Assembly (NCBI GenBank): GCA_025558095.1
Contig: JAIVFI010000003.1
Span: forward strand, 434,001-498,000
Reading direction: 5' to 3'
Origin: Hyaloraphidium curvatum
Taxonomy: Eukaryota > Monoblepharomycota > Hyaloraphidiomycetes > Hyaloraphidiales > Hyaloraphidiaceae
DNA length: 64,000 nt
How positions within the stretch are numbered: position 1 is the first letter of the stretch; each line of letters starts with the position of its first letter. The translations under genes were made by a program, and so were the position numbers. The notes beneath the pieces were generated by a model. It was not told where the DNA came from. It saw nothing but the letters and a program-made list of their open reading frames with translations, and did not search any database. This document shows, in pieces, positions 23,139 to 26,623 of this stretch.

Positions 23139-23863
23139 GGCGGCTAACGACGCGGGGTGCGAACGAGGCACTGATGCTGGTATTTGTCGCAGGGGTTTTC
23201 TGTGGCGCCGTGGAAACCGTGTGCGCCTTTTGAATCCTGGTTCCTTGGTTCCTGCGCAAGGGCAGCGCACGAATGACTCAAGTTGCGACACAGCTCTGCA
23301 GAAATCATGGACGTACGGCACGCTGGAGACTTCGTTTTGCTCGGATACCAGTGCCCGGAGGTAGTCGCCGAATGACCATGCGTCTGTCGGCGCAGAAGCT
23401 CGCTTAGGACGGATCTCGGCAATGACGTATTCGCCAGCGCCACACCTGGTTTCCGACCCGAAGCGGCCCTCGCTCGGCCCTGAGCACACGTCACAGCAAT
23501 CCCTGCTTCATCCATTGTGCGGCCTCATCCGGAAATGCGTGATGTCGTGTCGCGGGGGGGGGGGGGGGGGGGGCGGTCAGGCAAGTCTCCGAAGGAAAGG
23601 TTGCTCGGCAGGCCTGGCGCTGGGGCCGACACCGTGGGAGGCGGAAGTAGTCGGCATGATGCTTCGAGTGGTCACCTCTCACGTTCTCACGTAGCTGAAT
23701 TCCAAATGATTTTCTCCGCCGGGGTTGTCGCCGTTGAAGGCGTGGGGAGCAGTCGGCTCCCAGCGTCGCCCCCCTCAAAACACTCCATCGTAGCTCCCGG
23801 CCATACGTCGCTCCACGGCTCAACAAATCATACGACGCGTCTACCGAAAGCGTCCACACGGCA
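23139..23863. other. Divergent intergenic region containing a 20-G tract
   Basis: These 725 bp separate the small membrane-protein gene from the TPR fusion gene and must hold both promoters. The main visible feature is an uninterrupted run of 20 G at 23554-23573. I see no coding motif or RNA gene. Confidence 0.4.
23554..23573 (+). repeat. Homopolymeric G tract (20 G)
   Basis: Twenty consecutive guanines lie in the intergenic region about 290 bp upstream of the TPR fusion gene. Such tracts can form quadruplexes, but they are also frequent sites of assembly error or slippage. Confidence 0.95.
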
Positions 23864-26623
23864 ATGGACCCGCACGACGGCGGCCCGCCGAGGGACGCGT
23901 CCCACGACCCGGCGACGTGCCTCCAGTGCCGTCTGCAGGCGTCGTTTGTGTACGCGCTGCAAGCGGCGCTGTTCGGCGAGCGCGAGGACTCGGACTCCGA
24001 GATGCCGGAACTGGAAGGCCCTCCGGAACCCCCGGCTGCGCCGCCGGCCGCGGTCTCTGGGGGAGGCGCGAGCCCCGGGGCCGCGCTGCCCGTGGGGACG
24101 GACGTCACGGAGGACGACAGGGCCCGCAAACGCGTCTTTTCCGTGGATGCGAAGCAGGGAAGAAGGGCTCCTCCCGTGCCCCGCGCGCCGCAAGTCGAGC
24201 CCGCGCCGCCGGCGGAGCCCGCCCCCGAGGTACCGATGATTCCAGAGGCGGAGGAGCTCAAGAAGCAGGGGAACGCGGCGCTGGCGGCGGAGGACTTTGT
24301 CGGGGCCATCGACGCGTCAGCTTTCCCGTTTGCAGCAACCGCGGGCTTTCTTCTAACGTTCAGGCCTGCGACAGATACACCAAGGCGATCGAATGCTTCC
24401 CGGAACCGAGGGCGGATAAGCGGCTTGCGGTGCTGCACTCCAATCTCGCGCTCGCGCACCAGCGCTTCCACAACCTGGGCTCGGCGGTCCTTAGCGCCTC
24501 CAAGGCCATCGAACTGGATCCTTCGTACGCCAAAGCATACTACCGGAGGGGCACCGTCCAGAAGATGCTCGGCAAGCCGCGCGAGGCCTACGCCGACTTT
24601 CGCACGCTGCTCGCTCTGGAACCGCACAACCGCGAGGTGCTGAGCCTCATGAAGGACCTGGAGCTCGAGGTGCGCAAGCTCGGGTTCTCGGAGGCCATCA
24701 GCGGCGGCAAGGCCGAGACTGCGGCGGCGGCGGCAAAGCGCAAGGCGGCGGCCAAGAAACCCGAGGGCAGGGACTGGAACACGACGGCCTCGCTCGCCGT
24801 GCTGGCGGCCCGGAGGATCGCCGAGGAAGTCAGCAAACTCCCGGAAGAGTTTGCGCCGTTCCTCGAGGACATCGACGAGGTCTACGTGGACAAGATCGTC
24901 GCGTGGCTCGACTGGCCGACGATGCAGAGCTACAAGCAGTCCGGGGCGCTGGGAGGGCGCTTCGCGTCGACCAAGGTCAACGAGCTGATCAAGGCGCAGG
25001 ACGACTTCCACCGGACCCTCTTTGCTTCCGACCGCGAGCACCCGATCATCAGGGACCCGCACCTTTCCCTTCTCAACCCGTTCGAGCCGGCCGTCCAGCC
25101 CTTTCTCCATTACAACAAGCCCGACTACGAGGACGTCGCGCTGCCGCGCCTGTTTTCGCGGCACATCAAGCGCGAAGGGCTGGCGGTCGTGCCCAAGCTC
25201 GACGAGTTCGAGAGCAAGGTCGACGTCTTCACGGGCGGCCAGCTGCGGTACCTGGACTGGAGCAACGTCTTTCTCGCCGGGGGCGCCGCGCTCGCCGCGC
25301 TGGTTCCGACTCCCGGTGGCGTGCTGCTGGAGGACTACTACCTTTCGACGCCCATGCACGCGTCCGCGGACGTCGACCTCTTTATCTACGGCGTGACCGT
25401 CGATGAGGCCAACGCGAAGCTGCGGCAGATCTTTGGGGCCATCGAAAAGGCCGTCAAGGAGCAGAAGCCCAAGTCGCGCGTGATCGCCGTCCGGACGCAG
25501 CACACCTGCACCTTCGTCAGCGACTACCCCTTCCGGCACGTCCAGGTCGTCCTCCGGATCTACAAGTCGCCCGCCGAGATACTGATGGGGTTCGACGTGG
25601 ACGCCTGCTGCGCCGGCTACGATGGGACCAACGCTTGGATCAACGCCCGCTGCGCGAGGGCCCTCACGACCCAGGTTTGTCTCTTTTCGACTGCTGTGTG
25701 GGAACGCACTCAAACTGACTCCGCTTTGCAGTCCAACATGGTCGATCTGAGCAGGCGGTCGCCTTCGTACGAGCTGCGCCTCTTCAAGGTAGGGGAGAAG
25801 TGAGGTGAAGTTCCCTGGTCGCTGACGCTGTGTCAACAGTACGCCAAGCGGGGCTTCTCCATCGTCGTTCCCGACCTGGACAAGGATCGCGTCAAGAAAT
25901 TTCCGGACCACATCTGGGGCTGGCACCGGAGGAAGGAGAAGGGACTCGGCCTTCTGTGCATGCTCGAGCATCTCTGGTTCGCGTTTTCGTCTGCTTTCCG
26001 ATCCTCGCGCTGACGCCCCGTTGCAGGCTCAACCCCGAAAAGTCTCGCCAGAGCTACGCCGGCCTGAATCACTTCGATGTCGACAGCGAGATTTTCTTCA
26101 GCGGTGACCACACGCAAGGAGCAAGGCCGCGGGATCCCGACAAGGCCATCAGCGACTACGATTCCATCAAGTGAGCGATCGAGATTTTGTAGGCCGGAGC
26201 TTCGCTCACATCGTGCTTCACCAGGTTGCCTTTCGGGCCGAAGTACCGCCTCAGCGACATCGAGCGCCGAATCCACGACTTTTCGTGGTCCGCCAACAAC
26301 TGGTACAGGAAGGTGCGGTATTTCCCGCTTGTAGCTTTTGGGGCCACTCAGTTTTGCATTGACAGGAAATGGCTTGCATCGATCTCGACGACGAAGTGGA
26401 GGCCGTACTGTGGGGCTCCATCGACAAGGTCCTGGACGGCCGGCTCCGGCTGGTCCCCTCGGGCGCCACGCGCCGATACCCAAAGATCATCCGCGCCGAC
26501 AGCATGTGGCTGACGACGAACCCCGGCACCCAGCAAAAGATGCTTTCCGGCTCCTTCAACCCCATTCCGGACGATACCGAGGCGTGGTACCGGAGTGCCT
26601 ACGAGGACGTGCCGGAGAAGTGA
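23864..26623 (+). CDS. TPR (carboxylate-clamp) domain fused to a nucleotidyltransferase-like domain
   Basis: Exons 23864-24315, 24375-25674, 25732-25788, 25840-25955, 26027-26170, 26225-26312 and 26366-26623 give 804 residues. Residues 1-125 are acidic/Pro-rich with a CLQC motif. Residues 130-245 form a three-repeat TPR. It starts EELKKQGNAALAAEDFVGAID and carries all residues of an Hsp70/Hsp90 carboxylate clamp (K and N in LKKQGN, N in LHSNLA, K and R in KAYYRRG). A lysine/alanine-rich linker follows. Near residues 450-490 there is a nucleotidyltransferase-fold signature, FLAGGAALAAL followed by SADVDLFIYG. The remainder (VVPDLDKDRVKKFPDHIWGW, KWLTTN-like end) is unfamiliar. The acceptor at 24374 was chosen because it restores the exact TPR spacing (FVGAIDAYTKAIE). 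Function is unknown; client-linked nucleotidyl transfer is speculation. Confidence 0.8.

Follow-up and report, generated by a model that had tools for sequence, protein, structure and literature searches.

According to one study, the alpha-J helix of PP5 holds the enzyme off, and Hsp90 or Hsp70 tails bound to its TPR domain switch it on (PMC11259706). A second source describes FICD as a TPR-containing AMPylase, and GS-ATase (GlnE) and DrrA as polymerase-beta-like nucleotidyltransferases that AMPylate proteins (PMC8097203); the target of FICD is BiP, the Hsp70 of the endoplasmic reticulum (ER). Here we describe a gene of Hyaloraphidium curvatum that joins features of these systems. It lies at positions 23864-26623, on the forward strand, of a 64,000-nucleotide stretch of contig JAIVFI010000003.1 (positions 434,001 to 498,000, assembly GCA_025558095.1; hereafter the window), and encodes a PP5-like TPR domain followed by a nucleotidyltransferase domain of family PF26128. 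We class the protein as a putative co-chaperone enzyme of the EEVD-docking kind in which the type of enzyme is new, and we consider it on balance probable that it is a catalytically competent nucleotidyltransferase recruited to Hsp90 or Hsp70, whatever its substrate.

Domains and structure of the gene

The gene comprises seven exons in a genome of 31.9 Mb, and its spliced product of 811 residues is identical to the deposited H. curvatum protein DFJ74DRAFT_653493 (P0001). Splicing and this identity confirm the coordinates and strand of the original prediction, which was made from the DNA letters; its length of 804 residues was seven short, because a donor at 25956 gives 804 residues and the correct donor is at 25977. 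All six introns are GT-AG introns of 50-59 nt. Exon 2 (24375-25674) is an open frame of 433 whole codons that runs unbroken from the later TPR repeats through the linker into the GG/DxD core. Therefore, the protein does not reflect two adjacent genes merged by a gene model, and the fusion is real at the DNA level. Relatives P0005 and P0006, with the same order of TPR and domain, bear the source names of TRINITY contigs, that is, of transcriptome assemblies, in agreement with the single-gene fusion originally proposed.

The TPR domain with its PP5-like C-terminal helix spans residues 127-260 (24242-24702, crossing intron 1; this and all features below are on the forward strand). Pfam TPR_1 matches it with an E value of 2.7e-14 over three stretches, the best being residues 203-236. 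All five carboxylate-clamp residues are present, with K133 (24260-24262) and N137 (24272-24274) encoded in exon 1, and N174 (24442-24444), K204 (24532-24534) and R208 (24544-24546) in exon 2; the whole set is kept in 9 of the 12 aligned rows. The co-chaperone-type TPR with five EEVD-gripping residues, as first read from the letters, is thus upheld by both the Pfam match and the clamp alignment. PP5 was found to be top among the single-stretch PDB matches of the TPR profile and to occupy Foldseek ranks 1-5, and VIA-align did not single it out. A helical linker follows (residues 289-347, 24787-24963), seen as helices in the AlphaFold model and alignable with other TPR members and with Anaeramoeba proteins lacking a TPR. 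A by-eye likeness of this linker to Elongin-A/BC-box or F-box-like cullin adaptors gained no support: no match was obtained in Pfam or among PDB sequences.

The nucleotidyltransferase domain covers residues 360-811 (25000-26623, crossing introns 2-6). PF26128 is a precomputed assignment from public tables, carried by P0001 and by 45 of 45 proteins in one retrieved set; its model is not part of the Pfam set used for the local scan, which at E values up to 10 lists TPR families only and gives no match to PF01743 (PolyA_pol), metallophosphatase or Fic. Conservation of motifs was counted over 248 domain rows of 230 family proteins, the denominators being rows with a letter at the position. FLAGGAALAAL starts at residue 450 and SADVDLFIYG at residue 481. 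In the GG motif (Gly453-Gly454 of FLAGG, 25279-25284), G453 is present in 202/202 rows and position 454 is G or S in 201/203; in the DxD motif (Asp483 and Asp485 of SADVDLF, 25369-25377), D483 is kept in 206/207 and D485 in 207/207. Retention almost without exception argues that the motif is not due to chance, and the polymerase-beta-like GG...DxD pattern noticed at the outset holds, with the fold models in agreement.

The third catalytic acid, flagged earlier as a point for inspection, gave a divided picture. The strand that usually bears it (residues 540-547) carries Gln541 and Arg545 instead (25543-25557; Q541 in 227/228 rows, R545 in 219/228); further on, after a short helix, lies a near-invariant second acid pair, Asp558 and Asp560 of GFDVDACC (25594-25602; 231/232 and 228/232). 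Class II CCA enzymes work with two carboxylates, and by that precedent Gln541 would be harmless. Also conserved are R592-S594, E598-R600, K603-Y604, R607 and a tail of the form NPGxQ...GSFxP. The 300 residues after DxD, which had been thought to have no recognisable family, therefore belong to the same PF26128 domain, together with D558, D560, R607 and the tail motifs.

The remaining parts of the gene are as follows. Exon 1 (23864-24315) encodes the beginning of the TPR and, before it, an N-terminus that is disordered for the most part and contains a CxxC (TCLQC) and the acidic motif SEMPELE; the AlphaFold model has pLDDT below 50 in residues 1-13 and 38-122. Of 10 TPR members, five (P0001, P0002, P0003, P0153 and P0154) have a short CxxC motif towards the N-terminus. 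Intron 1 (24316-24374) is a GT-AG intron of 59 nt. Exon 3 (25732-25788) holds the RRSPSYELRLFK motif up to Lys603, and exon 4 (25840-25976) starts at Tyr604 (YAKRGF), with its end at 25976 set by identity to the deposited protein; a GL..L..LE-like stretch was seen in the alignment of relatives of this region. Exons 5 (26027-26170) and 6 (26225-26312) were likewise placed by that identity, and exon 7 (26366-26623) carries the stop codon as well as the tail motifs NPGTQ and GSFNPI. Upstream of the gene, 20 G follow one another without a break (23554-23573).

Predicted fold and its relatives

On the evidence of predicted models, the domain has a polymerase-beta-superfamily nucleotidyltransferase fold. 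AlphaFold pLDDT is mostly above 90 in the nucleotidyltransferase core. When the relative P0008 was modelled alone, the matches by Foldseek and VIA-align were led by nucleotidyltransferases, with low TM-scores, and strands and helices succeed one another in the same way in the P0001 model. By both methods the closest folds are those of class II CCA-adding enzymes, bacterial poly(A) polymerase I and TENT5 (FAM46), and the head-neck fold of class II CCA-adding enzymes and poly(A) polymerases is predicted to be present. Structure prediction, suggested beforehand as a check, thus returned a nucleotidyltransferase fold with CCA-adding enzymes and TENT5 as best matches.

The link found to CCA-adding enzymes is at the fold level only. 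By eye, GFDVDxC and YExRLxKYAxRGF look collinear with RRDxTINA and DDPLRVLRVIRFA of the host CCA enzyme; this candidate sequence homology was not supported, as hhalign was not significant. Against 80 CCA rows, nearly all gammaproteobacterial and hence a narrow profile, it gave a probability of 0.4 percent with the GG turn alone aligned. With 22 mixed rows the probability was 1.3 percent (reversed control 0.1), a result discounted because several of the added rows were evidently in the wrong frame.

Many proteins of giant viruses, among them Fadolivirus, Pithovirus, Pandoravirus and Hokovirus, also match the domain fold, and several of these proteins are named for ankyrin or BTB. The Fadolivirus match has an E value of 1.4e-42 (BFVD against model m02452e3d3c28, both being predicted structures). 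Scanning with the family yielded two weak, partial loci in viral contigs and no match in phage records. On these models, genes may have passed between giant viruses and eukaryotes.

Family members, fusion partners and the Hsp90 tail

PF26128 is a large eukaryotic family with members from fungi, algae and amoebae. By Pfam, a TPR is present in 11 of the 230 retrieved proteins, including proteins of the chytrid-like fungi Hyaloraphidium, Gonapodya and Borealophlyctis and the brown algae Pylaiella, Scytosiphon and Ascophyllum. The original prediction knew of no characterised protein with this pairing: no paper on a TPR or clamp paired with the PF26128 nucleotidyltransferase was found in the open-licence PMC literature, and the arrangement itself is not unique, being shared by at least 11 retrieved proteins. 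In a FastTree phylogeny of 202 of the 230 proteins (rows below 75 percent coverage dropped, five TPR-class rows kept whatever their coverage), 14 TPR-class rows fall on one side of a branch with support of 90; these are the 11 with a Pfam TPR plus P0007, P0152 and P0159, which were taken as truncated. A more careful tree of 61 rows, from which nine long or odd rows were barred and for which 27 of the others were chosen and 20 taken at random, requires two changes, and 26 percent of its bootstrap trees require one. As judged from these sequence trees, a single origin of the TPR fusion is possible.

Other fusion partners were read by eye from precomputed accession lists, with names assigned from the accessions. 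What we take to be ankyrin repeats occur in many PF26128 proteins; presumed PARP catalytic domains in P0011, P0015, P0060, P0069, P0074 and P0187; presumed BTB domains in P0031, P0036, P0038, P0039 and P0135, of which P0031 and P0038 also carry a presumed WWE; and, on the same assumption, kinase domains in P0119, P0123 and P0141, PNKP domains in P0023 and P0094, and a RING in P0088. The PARP and PNKP fusions suggest a possible connection to ADP-ribosylation or end repair. The H. curvatum genome holds a second PF26128-like gene (L002, G000:C12:554503-554829), with 37 percent identity across some 107 residues; upstream of it lies a weak MYND-finger-like segment (E 0.26). Residues 1-19 of P0021 (EukProt, 743 aa), N-terminal to its nucleotidyltransferase domain, are MARTKQTARKSTGGKAPRK, which we read as a histone H3 tail; Pfam at E up to 10 detects no histone fold in this protein, and ARTKQTARKS is found in P0021 only among the 230 proteins. 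This N-terminus is either a histone-tail mimic or an assembly chimera.

The Hsp90 of the same organism ends in MEEVD (L103, G000:C19:267813-267827), with a tail reading DDDMPPLEE...SSMEEVD. The EEVD pattern, which also allowed TGG, has 11 matches in the genome against 12 for the reversed control, and thus no excess; upstream frames were read for 10 of these matches, the eleventh having no locus, and L103 alone could be recognised as a chaperone. This genome pattern revealed no Hsp70 tail, although one may exist whose final codons are split or differently encoded. Five of 10 TPR-nucleotidyltransferases have, within their disordered N-termini, an acidic motif similar to the Hsp90 tail, [DE]..[MVIL]P[PEADS]L (window 23864-24315 in P0001); it is repeated in P0003, P0005 and P0006, and at least one match occurs anywhere in 14 of 220 other proteins. 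Its presence in both may mark a docking motif or be a coincidence.

Proposed function and comparison with known systems

The PP5-like TPR would bind the EEVD tail of Hsp90, and perhaps that of Hsp70, bringing a metal-dependent nucleotidyltransferase domain to chaperone-bound proteins, where it would transfer a nucleoside monophosphate from a nucleoside triphosphate. The helix after the TPR may keep the enzyme off until EEVD binds, as in PP5. Since the TPR-helix unit is similar to that of PP5 and here precedes a nucleotidyltransferase, the simplest reading is that the enzyme is delivered to chaperone complexes and possibly gated, and recruitment to Hsp70 or Hsp90 clients is what we infer from it. 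The TPR might instead bind another acidic C-terminus and take the enzyme to a dedicated partner; PP5 itself engages the non-chaperone substrate ELP1 directly, as reported in PMC11259706. Retention of the five clamp residues across distant eukaryotes and the MEEVD Hsp90 in the same genome speak against such a partner, which we regard as very unlikely. Comparably improbable is an inactive or binding-only domain serving as a scaffold or nucleoside triphosphate sensor: Gln541 on the usual third-acid strand would fit it, but G453, D483, D485, D558, D560, K603, Y604 and R607 are near-invariant over 230 proteins from fungi, algae and amoebae, as expected for an active site.

For a chaperone-recruited, active enzyme, the fold neighbours argue for an RNA substrate, whereas the partner modules argue for a protein. 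An RNA terminal nucleotidyltransferase of the CCA-adding, poly(A)-polymerase or TENT5 kind might sit on Hsp90 or Hsp70 and tail RNAs close by, for instance at translating ribosomes. The nearest folds are RNA-tailing enzymes, and the published structure-based clade that unites bacterial and eukaryotic CCA enzymes, bacterial poly(A) polymerase and FAM46B/C (PMC11646218) is the same mix as the best fold matches; C2H2 zinc fingers also occur in 2 of 58 members. However, the precomputed lists of the 230 proteins contain no RRM, KH or CCHC accession, the fusion partners are mostly protein-binding, and the comparison with the nearly all gammaproteobacterial CCA rows was not significant, so that this alternative appears somewhat unlikely. 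Because the family's partners are mostly protein-binding or protein-modifying (ankyrin, TPR, BTB, RING, kinase, PARP), we lean weakly and tentatively towards a protein substrate, with NMPylation of a client or chaperone. In its most specific form, which is decidedly unlikely as it stands, an Hsp90 or Hsp70 tail acting on the TPR-helix switch would activate the polymerase-beta-fold enzyme, which would then NMPylate the chaperone or a client; such an enzyme would be the cytosolic equivalent, unrelated in fold, of FICD acting on BiP. If chaperone recruitment is true, nucleotide transfer would join dephosphorylation (PP5), ubiquitination (CHIP) and prolyl isomerisation (FKBPs) at the EEVD site of Hsp90 and Hsp70. 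The TPR would also give an address to a very large enzyme family for which no paper was found in the open-licence literature searched, so that the hunt for its substrate could start from chaperone complexes.

How does this protein compare with known systems? Other PF26128 proteins have the same enzyme domain and motifs, with different modules in the place of the TPR. The protein differs from class II CCA-adding enzymes, poly(A) polymerase I and TENT5 in lacking a PF01743 match and a significant sequence-profile link, in its GFDVD, which contrasts with the RRD motif found in the CCA enzyme of the host, and in the Gln on the third-acid strand. FICD/HYPE likewise combines a TPR with a nucleotide-transferring enzyme, one tied to a chaperone (PMC8097203). 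FICD, however, has a Fic fold, unlike the polymerase-beta fold predicted here, and resides in the ER. Its TPRs are not known to be of the EEVD-clamp type. GS-ATase and DrrA, which AMPylate proteins, provide a precedent for the proposed chemistry; they are bacterial, belong to other sequence families and are not known to carry a clamp TPR. PP5 (PPP5C) shares the clamp TPR and the extra helix (..LELEVRKLGFSEAIS here, ..ECEKAVMKLKFEEAIS in Arabidopsis PP5), both N-terminal to the catalytic domain; that domain is a metallophosphatase in PP5 and a nucleotidyltransferase fold in the H. curvatum protein, which adds a helical linker between the two parts.
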